DNA of 64,000 nt from Pseudoroseicyclus aestuarii (lineage in GTDB: Bacteria; Pseudomonadota; Alphaproteobacteria; Rhodobacterales; Rhodobacteraceae), in the NCBI RefSeq assembly GCF_003217255.1, contig NZ_QJTE01000004.1, positions 248,001 to 312,000 of the forward strand. Reading direction: 5' to 3'. Each line of letters starts with the position of its first letter. The first letter of the stretch is position 1. This document shows positions 25,859 through 64,000 of this stretch, one piece after another. A model generated the notes under the pieces. That model saw nothing but the letters and a program-made list of their open reading frames with translations. It did not search any database and had not been told where the DNA came from. A program made the position numbers and the translations under genes.

Positions 25859-25884
25859 AGGAGAATAGTGGTGCCCGGGGGCGG
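25859..25884. repeat. Right copy of tRNA-Phe 3'-end direct repeat (putative attachment site)
   Basis: Overlaps the 3' end of the intact tRNA-Phe gene from the CCA inward. It matches the left copy at 24 of 26 positions, with an 18-bp identical core at 25867-25884. An element inserting here keeps the tRNA functional because its own copy restores the 3' end. Confidence 0.7.
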
Positions 25885-25943
25885 AATCGAACCACCGACA
25901 CGAGGATTTTCAATCCACTGCTCTACCCCTGAGCTACCCAGGC
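25869..25943 (-). tRNA. tRNA-Phe(GAA)
   Basis: 75 nt with CCA encoded. Acceptor stem 7 bp (one T-G pair), T8-A9, D-arm GCTC/GAGC, anticodon loop TTGAAAA giving GAA, and T-arm GGTGG TTCGATT CCGCC. The anticodon stem has one T-T mismatch at the second pair. It sits next to yacG and RNase E/G, the usual place in this family. Its 3' end is duplicated 22.4 kb away. Confidence 0.95.
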
Positions 25944-46547: not shown

Positions 46548-46889
46548 ATGACGGATCGCATCACCATCCGGCCCTCGGGCCGCAGCTGGGTCGTCCGCGC
46601 CGACGGCGCCGTTCTGGGCGAGAGCACGACCGTGCTCGAACTTCTCGAAGAGGGGCACGAGCCGGTGATCTATTTCCCGCGCGAGGATATCGCGATGGCC
46701 TTCCTCGATGCCTCGGAGACCCGCACCACCTGCCCCTTCAAGGGCGAGGCGCGCTACTTCTCGATCATCGCGCAGACCGGCGCGATCAAGGACGCCGCCT
46801 GGTCCTACGAGGACCCGAAGGAGGCGGTGCGCCAGATCGCCGGCCACCTCGCCTTCGACCGCAGCAAGGTCGCGGTCGAAGCGATCTGA
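46548..46889 (+). CDS. DUF427 family protein
   Basis: 113 residues with the DUF427 pattern: RADGAVLGES, PVIYFPREDI, and TTCPFKGEARYFSI. A small beta fold of unknown function. Ends the cobS-cobT strand group; a conserved 3'-flanking module follows. Confidence 0.88.
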   Translation: MTDRITIRPSGRSWVVRADGAVLGESTTVLELLEEGHEPVIYFPREDIAMAFLDASETRTTCPFKGEARYFSIIAQTGAIKDAAWSYEDPKEAVRQIAGHLAFDRSKVAVEAI

Positions 46890-46901
46890 GCGCGCGCCCC
46901 T

Positions 46902-46971
46902 TCTTCTCTTTGCAAATATCCTCGGGGGGTGAAGCGGGCCACCGGCCCGCGAGGGGGGCAGACAGCCCCCC
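46902..46971 (+). repeat. Conserved 3'-flanking module: TTCTCTTT-AAATATCC-G-run plus hairpins
   Basis: Twelve bases after the DUF427 stop: TTCTCTTTGCAAATATCC, then CTCGGGGGG, then two hairpins (GCGGGCC/GGCCCGC; GGGGGGC/GCCCCCC). A second copy lies behind murD on the other strand (63464-63524), with the same order of parts. It may be a transcription-ending or RNA-stabilising element. Its recurrence is direct; the role is inferred. Confidence 0.6.
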
Positions 46972-46998
46972 TCCCCCGCATGCCGCAAAGGCGCCGCG

Positions 46999-48744
46999 TC
47001 AGGAATGCTCCTCCGCCGCCTGCCGCGCCAGCGCGCGGTTCATCGCCCGCAGCGCATCGACCTGGAACAGCGTGCCCCAAAGCTGCGGCGGCGCATCGGC
47101 CGTCTCGCCGAAGCTGACGACGGGGATCCAGGGGGCGGCGGTCTTCTCGAACAGCGGCATCGCCTGCTCCAGCGTCGCGTCGCTCTCCAGGAACAGCCCC
47201 TCGCGCACCCGCGCCATGGCCTCCTCCTCGGGGGCGGCGCGCGGCGCGCCGGCGGCGCGCATGACGCTTTCGACCCGCAGCGTGCACAAAAGCCAGGCCT
47301 GCGGGCCGGCGGCAAGATGCACCCCGCGCCGCTCGAGCTGGGTCAGAAAATAGCTGCGATCCACGATGCGCGAGGCCAGCGCCGTCGAGATCGAGACCGC
47401 GACCATGACAGCCAGCCCGGTCTGCCAGTCACCCGTCAGCTCGAAGACGATCAGCGTGGTCGAGATCGGCGCCCCCAGCACCGCTGCCGCCACCGCTCCC
47501 ATCCCGGCCAGCGCGTAGAGCGTCCCCTCGCCCGAGGCCTCGGGAAACAGCGAGGTCGCCACGGTGCCGAAGGCCAGCCCCGTCAGCGCCCCCACCATGA
47601 GCGAGGGCGAGAAAACGCCGCCCCCCATGCGCCCGCCGAGGGTGATCGCCGTCGCCAGCACCTTGACCGCGGCGAAGATCACCGCCGTCCCCAGCGCCAG
47701 CTCACCCACCAGCGCGCGCGAGGTCGTCTCGTAGCCGACGCCGATGATATGCGGGAACCATACTGCGATCCCGCCCAGCATCACCCCCGAGAGGGCGGGC
47801 CGGGCCCAGCGCGGCAGGCCGCTGCGCGCCTGCGCGCGCGCGGCCATGTCCTCGGCCAAGAAGATCGCGCGCATCAGCGCCACCGCGACGCAGCCGCAGA
47901 CCAGCCCCAGCAGCACGAAGGCCGGAAGCTCCTGGTAGAAACCGAGCTGCCCCTTCACCGGCAGCACGAATTCGGTCACGTCGCCGAAGACGCTGCGGGC
48001 CAGGACCGTGGCGGCGGCGCTCGCGATGACGATGGGGGCGAAGGCATGGACCGCGAAATGCCGCAGCACCACCTCCAGCGCGAAGAGCGCCCCGGCAATG
48101 GGCGCATTGAAGCTGGCCGAGACGCCGGCGGCGACGGCGCAGCCCAGCATGTCGCGCCCGGTGCGCCCGTCGGCCCGCATCAGGCCCGAGGCATAGGTCG
48201 CCAGCACGCTCGACAGGTGCACCACCGGCCCCTCGCGCCCCGTCGAGCCGCCGGTCGAGAGGGTGATCATGCTCGCCAGCGTCGAGATCAGCCCCCGCCG
48301 CTTCTGCACCCGCCCCTCGGTCAGGGCCGCCCCCTCGATCACGTCGGCGACAGAGCGGACGCGCCCGTCCTCGGTGAAGCGGTCGAGAAGCAGCCCGACG
48401 GTCAGCCCGCCAAGCGCCGGGATCGCCACCAGCCAGTACCAGGGCAGAGAGGCGGCAAAGCTGTGCAGATGCGCCGGATCGTCGGTGCCGTAGATCCGCT
48501 CCTGCAGCAGGCCGACGCTCAGACGAAAGGCGATTGCGCCAAGGCCCGCCGCGCAGCCGAGAAAGAGGGCGATGAACCAGAACTGCAGCGCCGTCGGGCC
48601 GCGGCGGCGGATCAGGCCCCAGGCCTCGCCCCAGCGGCCGCGCAGCGCCCGGGCCGTGACCGCGCGGCGCCCGGCTTTCGCCGCCGGCTGTGACGGTGGT
48701 ACTTCCTGTCCCGGGCCTGCCGATGCGGCGCCGCCTTTCGTCAT
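46999..48744 (-). CDS. ClC-type voltage-gated chloride channel/transporter with CBS region
   Basis: 581 residues, about 11-12 membrane segments. ClC motifs: GSTGREGPVV (the GREGP selectivity motif), GGVFSPSL, and AGMGAVAAAVLGAPIS. The C-terminal cytosolic part (about 480-575) resembles CBS domains (FLESDATLEQAMPLFEK). The usual gating-glutamate position of exchangers is in GREGP, so H+/Cl- exchange is possible. Divergent from the flavoprotein gene. Confidence 0.9.
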   Translation of the reverse strand: MTKGGAASAGPGQEVPPSQPAAKAGRRAVTARALRGRWGEAWGLIRRRGPTALQFWFIALFLGCAAGLGAIAFRLSVGLLQERIYGTDDPAHLHSFAASLPWYWLVAIPALGGLTVGLLLDRFTEDGRVRSVADVIEGAALTEGRVQKRRGLISTLASMITLSTGGSTGREGPVVHLSSVLATYASGLMRADGRTGRDMLGCAVAAGVSASFNAPIAGALFALEVVLRHFAVHAFAPIVIASAAATVLARSVFGDVTEFVLPVKGQLGFYQELPAFVLLGLVCGCVAVALMRAIFLAEDMAARAQARSGLPRWARPALSGVMLGGIAVWFPHIIGVGYETTSRALVGELALGTAVIFAAVKVLATAITLGGRMGGGVFSPSLMVGALTGLAFGTVATSLFPEASGEGTLYALAGMGAVAAAVLGAPISTTLIVFELTGDWQTGLAVMVAVSISTALASRIVDRSYFLTQLERRGVHLAAGPQAWLLCTLRVESVMRAAGAPRAAPEEEAMARVREGLFLESDATLEQAMPLFEKTAAPWIPVVSFGETADAPPQLWGTLFQVDALRAMNRALARQAAEEHS

Positions 48745-62169: not shown

Positions 62170-63336
62170 TCAACGACCCCGCCGCAGCAGCAGATCGCCG
62201 ATCTCGCCCTGCGGGCGCTGGCGGGTAAAGGCGAGGAGCATGCCCACGGCGATGCCGCTGGCGATGACCGAGCTGCCGCCGTAGCTGACGAAGGGCAGCG
62301 TCATGCCCTTGGCGGGCAGAAGGCGCACGGCGACGCCCATGTTGATCATCGCCTGAACGGCAAAGGAGCAGGCCAGTCCGCAGCCGGCGAGGCGAATGAA
62401 GGGATCGCGCTCCTTCGTCAGCCGCGCGAGCGAGCGGACGACCACGGCGCAATAGAGGATCAGGATCAGCGCGACGCAGATCAGCCCGTATTCCTCGGCC
62501 GCGACGGCGATGATGAAGTCGGTATGGGCATCGGGCAGCGACCATTTCACCTGCCCCTCGCCGACGCCGACGCCGAAGAGGCCGCCCTCGCGGATGGCGC
62601 TGGTGGCGTAGCCGATCTGGGTGGTGGGATCGAGGTCCGGGTTCAGGAAGCCGTCGATCCGCCGCGCGAAGTGCTCGGAGCTGTTGTAGGCCGCGGTACC
62701 GGCCAGCGCGACCATGCCGCCCAGGATAACCAGCAGCAGCATCGGCGCCCCGGCGACGAAATACATCACGCCCCACGAAAAGAGGACCAGCGCCGCCTGC
62801 CCGAAGTCGGGCTGCAGCGCCAGGAACATCACGATGGTCACCGCCATGACGAAGGAGATCGACTTGCCCGGGGGGCCGCCGACCTCCTGCCCCGCGGCCA
62901 TGACCCAGGCGGCGGCGACGACGAAGCCGGGCTTGAGGAACTCGGAGGGCTGCACCGAGGCGAAGCCAAAGGAGTACCAGCGCACCGCGCCCTTGCCAAA
63001 ATCGGTGCCGAAGATCGGCAGCAGCACCAGCGACAGGAAGCCCAGGCCGAAGCCGAGGACAGCGAAGCGCCGCACCATCTGCGGCGACATCATCGAGATG
63101 CCGAACATCACGATCAGCGCGACGCAGCCGAAGAAGGCCTGCCGCTGCACGTAGTAGAAGGGATCGAGCCCGTTGCGCGAGGCCAGCGGCGGCGAGGCGG
63201 CGAGGCCCAGCAGCAGGCCGATCGCGAACAGCAACAGCACGCAGGACATGGTCCAGCGGTCGATCGTGCGCCACCAGCGTGGAAGAATCGGGTCGCCCGC
63301 GGATACGGGAACCGCGCCATGGACCATCTCTGTCAT
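62170..63336 (-). CDS. ftsW: Lipid II polymerase/flippase FtsW (SEDS family)
   Basis: 388 residues, about 10 membrane segments. SEDS motifs: [28 protein letters not shown], and [13 protein letters not shown]. The ATG (MTEMVHG) fits, as the extension upstream is not conserved. Works with PBP3 at the septum. Confidence 0.96.
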
Positions 63337-63463
63337 GGTTGGCCTTGCCTGCTCTGCTCTGCCCGTTTTCCGGGTCTGCAGGCAGGCTACAGGCATCGCG
63401 GCCCGGATGCCACCAAAATGACGGCTGCTCACCCGGCCCTGCATCGGACGGGGGCCGGCGTTG

Positions 63464-63524
63464 GGGGGCTCTGCCCCCGCCCGCGCTGACGCGCGGTCTC
63501 CCCCGGGATATTTCGAAAGAGAAG
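63464..63524 (-). repeat. Second copy of the conserved 3'-flanking module (behind murD)
   Basis: On the minus strand, 10 bp after the murD stop: TTCTCTTTCGAAATATCC, then CGGGGGAG, and a GGGGGC/GCCCCC hairpin at 63464-63478. It matches the part order of the copy behind DUF427. It separates murD from ftsW by about 200 bp, so here transcription may be partly cut. Confidence 0.6.
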
Positions 63525-63534
63525 ATGGGGGGCG

Positions 63535-64000
63535 TCAGCCGAGGCGGAGGCGCACCTCGGCCATGAAATCCTCTCCCCGGCGCTCGAAGCTGTCGTATTG
63601 GTCGAAGCTGGCGGCGGCGGGGGCGAGAAGCACCGTCTCGCCCGGCTGGGCTTCGGCCATGGCGCGGTCGACCGCGCGCTCCATGGTGGTGCAGACCTCG
63701 ACCTCGACGCCGGTCAGCTGCAGGGCGAAATGCTCGGCCTCGCGGCCGATGACATAGGCCTTGGCGACACGGCCCAGATGCGGGGCCAGCGCCTCGAGGC
63801 CGCCCTCCTTCTCGAGCCCGCCGCAGATCCAGCGGATGCGGTCGAAGGCGGCCAGCGCCTTGGCGGCGCTGTCGACATTGGTGGCCTTGGAATCGTTGAC
63901 ATAGGCGACGCCGCCTTCCTCGGCGATGCGCTGGGAGCGGTGCGGCAGGCCGGGGTAGCTGTGCAGCGCCGCCTCGATCTGGCGCGGGCCGAGGCCGAGG
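63535..64000 (-). CDS. murD: UDP-N-acetylmuramoylalanine-D-glutamate ligase, C-terminal part
   Basis: The frame is open to the window end; 155 C-terminal residues are seen. MurD C-terminal signature: [45 protein letters not shown]. The N-terminal and central domains lie beyond the window. It adds D-Glu to UDP-MurNAc-L-Ala. It leads toward ftsW in the same direction. Confidence 0.96.

Follow-up and report, generated by a model that had tools for sequence, protein, structure and literature searches.

A dispersed gene-end element of Pseudoroseicyclus aestuarii that joins a near-invariant tag to a variable hairpin arm

We analysed a stretch of 64,000 nucleotides of the Pseudoroseicyclus aestuarii genome (hereafter the window, meaning the whole stretch), in which the same short element occurs twice behind unrelated genes. 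Site 1 lies in the convergent gap between a DUF427 gene and a ClC chloride channel gene, and site 2 in the gap between murD and ftsW, which point in the same direction (Table 1). Both sites have a common layout: the stop codon is followed by 9 to 12 mostly C/G bases, then by TCTTCTCTTT, two free bases and AAATATCC, and after this tag comes an arm composed of a G-run, an inner hairpin and a second hairpin of the form GGGGGC..GCCCCC. At site 1, the terminal CCCCCGC of the arm can in addition pair with the first G-run.

The core sequence TTCTCTTTNNAAATATCC has exactly two matches in the window, at 46904-46921 on the plus strand and at 63506-63523 on the minus strand, each with 0 mismatches, versus a mean of 0.02 matches at up to 3 mismatches in 100 dinucleotide shuffles of the window. 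These shuffles, together with a genome-wide reversed control of 0, rule out chance as the source of the tag matches. A sequence-only reading had claimed that the DUF427 and murD genes share a 3'-flanking module in which the tag precedes a G-run and C/G hairpins. The two exact matches confirm the shared module, and the G-run and hairpins are present, at site 1 as two hairpins plus the outer pairing of G-run and C-run. The distance of 12 nt that it gave between the DUF427 stop and TCTTCTCTTT was correct, and the one behind murD is 9 nt instead of 10. No Rfam family matched the element at the gathering score; the only match in the window was a tRNA (25872-25943, minus strand).

Table 1. Coordinates of the element and its flanking genes at the two window sites
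Feature	Position in window	Strand	Remarks
DUF427 gene, 3' end towards element	46548..46889	+	PF04248
C-rich lead-in, DUF427 stop to tag	46890..46901	+	
Tag D1, copy 1, TCTTCTCTTTGCAAATATCCT	46902..46922	+	G000:C4:294902-294922; 1 mismatch to consensus, at the last base
Right arm, copy 1: CGGGGGG, inner hairpin, second hairpin, CCCCCGC	46923..46979	+	
Inner hairpin H1, GCGGGCC ACC GGCCCGC	46934..46950	+	
Second hairpin H2, GGGGGGC AGACA GCCCCCC	46953..46971	+	
ClC-type chloride channel gene, convergent, 3' end towards other side of element	46999..48744	-	PF00654
ftsW, next same-strand gene	62170..63336	-	TIGR02614; start codon uncertain, ORF start 63444 also possible
Right arm, copy 2: CGGGGG, inner hairpin (63481-63496), second hairpin GGGGGCAGAGCCCCC (63464-63478)	63463..63505	-	
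Tag D1, copy 2, TCTTCTCTTTCGAAATATCCC	63505..63525	-	G000:C4:311505-311525
murD, 3' part, cut by window end	63535..64000	-	TIGR01087; score below full-length cut-off

Copies in the genome and their placement at gene ends

The tag at both window sites, D1 (TCTTCTCTTTNNAAATATCC, 21 letters), occurs in 70 copies in the 3.44 Mb genome, of which 50 are exact, 19 have one mismatch, 1 has two and 0 have three (reversed control, 0). Among convergent gaps we noticed a sister tag, D2 (TTCATGTTTCNNNAAATACTCC), with 36 copies genome-wide (reversed control, 0); 9 of them match the search pattern exactly, 20 with one, 6 with two and 1 with three mismatches, and the context, profile and folding figures given for D2 rest on 30 of the 36 copies. 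Together, the two tags reach a density of about 1 per 32 kb. Within sets chosen at up to 3 mismatches, 13 of the 21 D1 positions are identical in all 70 copies and 18 of the 22 D2 positions in all 30 copies examined. The half AAATATCC is found 78 times in the genome, 66 times within D1 tags, and the C-rich lead-in recurs genome-wide, with C at bases 2-6 before the D1 tag in 47 to 61 of the 70 copies.

Several copies have features of their own. Five D2 copies end in AAATACTCA (G000:C1:254765, C1:635796, C2:715719, C3:295588 and C2:113204); the four of this kind that were examined all occur without a G-run arm, and C3:295588 lies between ybaB and recR, C1:254765 within a predicted gene. Inverted pairs are formed by a D1 and a D2 tag that point apart at a spacing of 31 bp (G000:C8:37139-37212) and by two D2 tags spaced 149 bp from each other (G000:C1:635625-635817), and similar pairs are seen in the relative G005 and in a Rhodobacteraceae metagenome bin. 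L229 has a further D1 tag in decayed form, with the ending AAATATCTC, about 20 bp from the first and pointing away from it.

For the analysis of placement we combined 100 own sites (70 D1 and 30 of the 36 D2) with 127 sites from four other genomes (two relatives, Tropicibacter naphthalenivorans and the Rhodobacteraceae metagenome bin), using gene calls from a simple codon-usage caller, not a standard annotator. Among these 227 sites, 95 were in convergent, 108 in same-direction and 10 in divergent gaps, 12 at edges and 2 inside genes. This count skips genes that span a site, such that L057 and L251 were scored as edge or same-direction even though they lie inside predicted genes; 3 of the 100 own sites do so in total (L057, L251, L390). 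Own sites split 49/42/5 between convergent, same-direction and divergent gaps (96 of 100, the other 4 having no clear gene pair), versus 23.0/42.3/30.7 expected from intergenic bases (p ~1e-11, background from 464 kb); the split differs from the 15.3/54.1/26.6 expected from gap counts, too. That is, the element favours convergent gaps and avoids divergent ones. Of 49 same-strand upstream neighbours, 27 have the D1 tag 5-16 nt behind their stop codon, and on the arm side the distance to the stop is 33-78 nt in 43 of 51 cases, which is about one arm's length. Since the tag runs with the genes in 52 and against them in 56 same-direction cases, its orientation is neutral and the element marks the 3' end of the upstream gene either way round. 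The sequence-only reading had taken the module for a genome-level element behind unrelated genes, and the 70 D1 copies and the strong 3'-end bias support this: the genome-wide motif search with stop-codon positions that it proposed, once run, yielded many copies with a bias to gene ends, contrary to the few copies without bias that it named as the refuting outcome. The second tag, the genome-specific spellings and an arm that varies beside a tag that hardly does lay outside its view.

Such a placement would be seen if the element were a plain transcription terminator of local type, with the pyrimidine-rich tag serving for termination or for the loading of Rho, the hairpins setting the RNA 3' end and RNA polymerase or Rho constraining the tag. 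Besides the convergent excess and the divergent avoidance, tags sitting snugly behind stop codons speak for this, as does an ordinary hairpin ending in a C-run before the tag in L046, L048, L223, L383, L385 and L406. We regard it as an unlikely reading. In a simple scan of same-direction gaps (12 gaps of >300 bp and 2 odd sites left out), T-tail hairpins were found in 4 of 23 D1, 3 of 12 D2 and 25 of 126 element-free gaps, and were thus missing from most element gaps (19 of 23 and 9 of 12). Convergent gaps had them in 14 of 33 cases with D1, 7 of 14 with D2 (some of these being the reversed tag itself) and 14 of 24 without an element; mononucleotide-shuffled controls gave 3 of 216 flanks and 2 of 31 convergent, 6 of 132 same-direction and 12 of 61 divergent gaps. 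A hairpin with an immediate T-run along the gene, the feature of intrinsic terminators, is accordingly not general in the element gaps of this genome. Strict replacement of ordinary terminators by the element is not borne out either, as part of the element gaps, the convergent ones among them, keep T-tail hairpins: an element and an intrinsic terminator can share a gap, and the two are not the same thing.

Copies within likely operons also argue against simple termination. Own copies lie within the pairs ccmB-ccmC, purL-bolA (purL being assigned from the C-terminal 300 residues of its product, which score under the cut-off of the model), ybaB-recR (where the copy lacks a G-run arm), pyrC-pyrE, cdd-deoA and murD-ftsW, and one between a peptide-transporter permease and its ATPase, a pair assigned by best matches below cut-off. 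The genes of each of these pairs usually form one operon. Plasmid matches filled 20 rows from 19 different records; the taxonomy of the six records opened is Rhodobacterales, to which we take the genera of the remaining matches to belong as well. Judged by these names, the window's own family is probably the Rhodobacteraceae in a wide sense. Here, copies were found between hmgA and fahA (Gemmobacter fulvus, Tropicibacter oceani), between two xanthine-dehydrogenase-type subunits (Ruegeria; the xdh gap), between a NuoF-type gene and a formate dehydrogenase alpha gene (Roseinatronobacter) and between bchN-type and bchB genes (Sulfitobacter). Cereibacter sphaeroides 2.4.1 has one copy on plasmid pB, in a convergent gap. 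Two of the 20 plasmid matches, H17 in Paracoccus liaowanqingii and H20 in Haematobacter massiliensis, fall under annotated genes (putA and an ABC transporter ATPase) and correspond to the D2 element or its arm; the other 18 rows do not.

Since copies occur within likely operons, the element is not simply a terminator. The role in termination that the sequence-only reading had considered fits the bias to gene 3' ends, and pure termination is too narrow given these copies and the same-direction gaps that mostly lack T-tail hairpins. RNA stability and protein binding, which it had also named, may play a part. In addition, enzymes common to all genomes should have no need of the genome-specific spellings described below. 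The terminator reading accounts for the placement, not for the operon copies or the spellings.

The hairpin arm

A G-run arm is present in 57 of 70 D1 and 25 of 30 D2 copies. Only the short CGCCGGAGGC arm was found in 13 of 70 D1 copies and 1 of 30 D2 copies, and in 4 of 30 D2 copies the G-run arm is missing altogether; given such short-arm and armless copies, the hairpin is not obligatory. We picked 30 arms by hand for their three-part look and left out L031 because of its interrupted second G-run. The inner segment formed a stem of 5-9 bp in 29 of the 29 arms that remained (mean 6.5 versus 3.7 shuffled), which, the arms having been hand-picked, is no genome-wide rate. These 29 inner hairpins comprise 27 distinct sequences. 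Because a MAFFT alignment of these arms had too many gaps for base pairs to be counted, each sequence was scored for stems separately. The G-run arms have modest fold z-scores, averaging about -1.2 in D1 and about -1.0 in D2, with similar values on both strands. Only a subset of copies has a hairpin in front of the tag; in the main classes, the 45 upstream bases have a mean z of -0.4 to -0.8.

Among the arms, those of L038, L044, L050, L224, L247, L253, L383, L384 and L409 have the loops GCGAA, GTGAA, GGAAA or GCAAA. On the tag strand these nine loops fit GNRAA, with a closing pair that switches between C-G and T-A. The arm of L054 has a different loop outside this set.

Some own D2 copies have long identical arms in common, as copying would give. 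A recent burst of identical copies is not supported, since the examined arms diverge, although some D2 arms are alike. Copies from such a burst would have similar arms, and the examined arms have drifted with the stem kept while the tag has not drifted, so that recent copying is a poor explanation of the tag. This difference between arm and tag is our main ground for supposing that a reader of the tag keeps its sequence constant.

Spellings among relatives

Relatives were searched with the loose pattern CTTCN{4,14}AAATAYYC, and a genome was called enriched if it had at least 20 matches and at least 5x the reversed control. Strong enrichment was found in 64 of 120 genomes of the family (own included) versus 3 of 140 genomes from other families in the class. 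Summed matches amounted to 5782 versus 527 in the control within the family and to 2557 versus 1450 outside it, where a mild excess is thus seen too; in all these figures a site with repeated CTTC counts twice and spellings that do not start with CTTC are missed. The heaviest carriers were G126, G002 and G104 with 313, 239 and 229 matches (control: 3, 4 and 1).

Each genome inspected had one or two main spellings among the matches listed. Within these matches, G005 uses CTTCATCTCTTTNNAAATACTC and CTTCTTCTGTTYNNAAATATCC, G051 CTTCATCTGTGCNNAAATACTC and CTTCTTTTGTGCNNAAATACTC, G108 CTTCTTTGGGTNNAAATATCC, G010 CTTCGTTGYNNAAATACTC and G058 CTTCTTTCGGANNNAAATACCC. Spellings are not strictly private, since that of D1 was found in two other genomes, Tropicibacter naphthalenivorans and the Rhodobacteraceae metagenome bin; the latter also carries CTTTCATCTTGCCNCAAATATCC.

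Genome-specific spellings placed at gene ends resemble the uptake sequences of Neisseriaceae and Pasteurellaceae (excerpts of PMC1852404 and PMC3630211). The tag could in that case be a self-recognition sequence for DNA exchange, a mark of kin DNA that is placed at gene ends and often within hairpins, and an exact search with the own spellings found neither tag plus G-run on viral contigs. The tag density of the own genome lies far under the at least 1,000 copies usual for uptake sequences (excerpt of PMC1852404), and the attached structured arm is left unexplained. We consider this reading very improbable.

We then looked at orthologous gaps. The gap between hmgA and fahA carries the element in three genomes (G. 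fulvus, T. oceani and G005), and so does the 3' flank of murD (own genome, G005 and metagenome bin). In the xdh gap the tags differ, CTTCATCTGGCTATAAATATCC in Ruegeria and CTTCATCTCTTTGCAAATACTCC in G005, and are followed by 28 arm bases that are identical by eye; T. naphthalenivorans has the AAATATCC half only. G005 also uses the spelling of this gap elsewhere in its genome. In Ruegeria, 200 kb of plasmid yielded one copy, which makes its tag a candidate for a genome's dialect; as arms of the xdh type are common in addition, the case is no more than suggestive. Overall, conservation of position is weak: own element-adjacent genes were matched by 6 of 114 element-adjacent genes elsewhere versus 8 of 392 others, and element-like sequence was seen by eye in the printed 3' flank of about 4 of 29 DUF427 relatives and 3 of 29 murD relatives. 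Strong positional conservation is hence not borne out, and the telling cases are single ones.

Low positional conservation would be expected of a mobile repeat of REP or MITE type, spread by a transposase, in which case the spellings would be lineages of mobile elements. Dispersed copies that form two families in the own genome, occasional inverted pairs (e.g. C8:37139-37212) and the long arms common to some D2 copies fit such a history. Arguing against it are orthologous gaps with different tags, inner hairpins that, where examined, are almost all different next to a tag that is not, the scarcity of intermediate, decayed D1 copies (50/19/1/0) and the lack of a Y1 transposase gene (PF01797, the only transposase type searched) in the own genome. 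We rank a mobile repeat next after a REP-like 3'-end module and consider it improbable.

Possible function and relation to known systems

The reading that we prefer, and to which we give about an even chance, is that of a REP-like 3'-flanking element with two modules, a hairpin arm acting as a barrier and a tag read by a putative factor. The first module is the asymmetric tag of 20-22 letters with its variable gap of 2-3 bases, which is near-invariant within the genome and has another spelling in most of the other genomes that we inspected; the second is the GC-rich hairpin arm of most copies, in which the fold is better preserved than the sequence. REP hairpins of E. coli are held to block 3'-to-5' exonucleases and so to protect the upstream mRNA. 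In a transcript, the arm may similarly be a barrier to 3'-to-5' exonucleases that stabilises the mRNA of the upstream gene, and between convergent genes it would mark a 3' end and occasionally serve as an RNA end point. The tag may be an address on double-stranded DNA for a sequence-specific factor, as its orientation does not matter, and the specificity of this putative factor would have shifted between lineages. That relatives have their own spellings of a near-invariant tag suggests such a putative reader.

More tentatively, and with less confidence than in the two-module element as such, we propose that a fast-evolving putative factor reads gene-end tags across the family, and that on a shift of its specificity about a hundred tags would be rewritten in place while the hairpins stay. 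Rewriting of tags beside unchanged hairpins is suggested by the xdh gap. Under this proposal, which we offer as a possibility only, the tags would be a genome-wide gene-end code with lineage-specific dialects.

In R. sphaeroides, a published MEME search of 15 bases before PNPase-dependent 3' ends found no motif (excerpt of PMC7866481). It concerned another genome, and motif-free ends of this kind, as far as that excerpt goes, do not favour the barrier. Among the open-access titles and abstract starts listed there was no published description of the element; one may exist in subscription journals. Should a factor read the tag, about a hundred gene ends per genome would be under a common, unrecognised signal throughout the family. 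A near-letter-perfect tag next to a hairpin whose sequence is free poses the question in concrete form, and since the laboratory strain Cereibacter sphaeroides 2.4.1 is among the named carriers, the matter is accessible to experiment. Even if the element is only a REP-like repeat, it would be a family-wide annotation feature that predictors of terminators or small RNAs may mislabel, and a natural experiment in the joint change of dispersed repeats.

With Rho-independent terminators the element shares its position at gene ends, GC-rich hairpins and a nearby T-rich stretch. Unlike in these terminators, the T-rich stretch precedes the arm on one strand, GATATTT or GAGTATTT follows on the other, and copies are also found within likely operons. 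Bradyrhizobium japonicum has GAATCCAT(N)23ATGGATTC and similar spaced motifs near gene ends (excerpt of PMC5217627). Like the element, this motif has tens of copies near gene 3' ends and no assigned function; it differs in being palindromic, and the same excerpt describes neither a dialect series nor a hairpin arm for it (PMC5217627). With the dialects of DNA uptake sequences the tag has in common that it is short, fixed within a genome, spelled otherwise in other genera and located at gene ends. Unlike uptake sequences, it has tens of copies per tag (70 and 36) and not about 1,000 or more, and it is asymmetric and bipartite with a structured arm alongside.

E. coli REP sequences occur in many extragenic copies at gene 3' ends and in intercistronic gaps, form hairpins and belong to families that differ between genomes. 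The element is like REP/BIME of E. coli and Pseudomonas in its many extragenic copies, its location at 3' ends and in intercistronic gaps, the hairpin arm of most copies and the way its families vary from genome to genome. It is unlike them in that its conserved part is the unpaired tag of 20-22 letters and not a palindrome, and in that its inner hairpins vary. REP palindromes have a GTAG- or CGTC-type tetranucleotide at one end, and supercoiling, termination and mRNA stability are the roles hypothesised for REP in the excerpt of PMC3733652. Within 71 bases of the tag end, GTAG was found in 5 of 70 D1 copies (6.0 shuffled) and 1 of 30 D2 copies (2.8), and CGTC in 20 of 70 (22.0) and 6 of 30 (12.1); neither is enriched, and the same holds for their complements beside the arm. 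The bases on the tag side next to the arm are AAATATCC or AAATACTCC. RAYT-type Y1 transposases (PF01797) gave 0 matches in the own genome, with positive controls in 5 of 14 genomes. A RAYT-driven REP is ruled out by the absence of both PF01797 and the REP tetranucleotide. Because neither GTAG/CGTC enrichment nor a RAYT-type gene was found, the element is not a member of REP; in its placement, it is REP-like.
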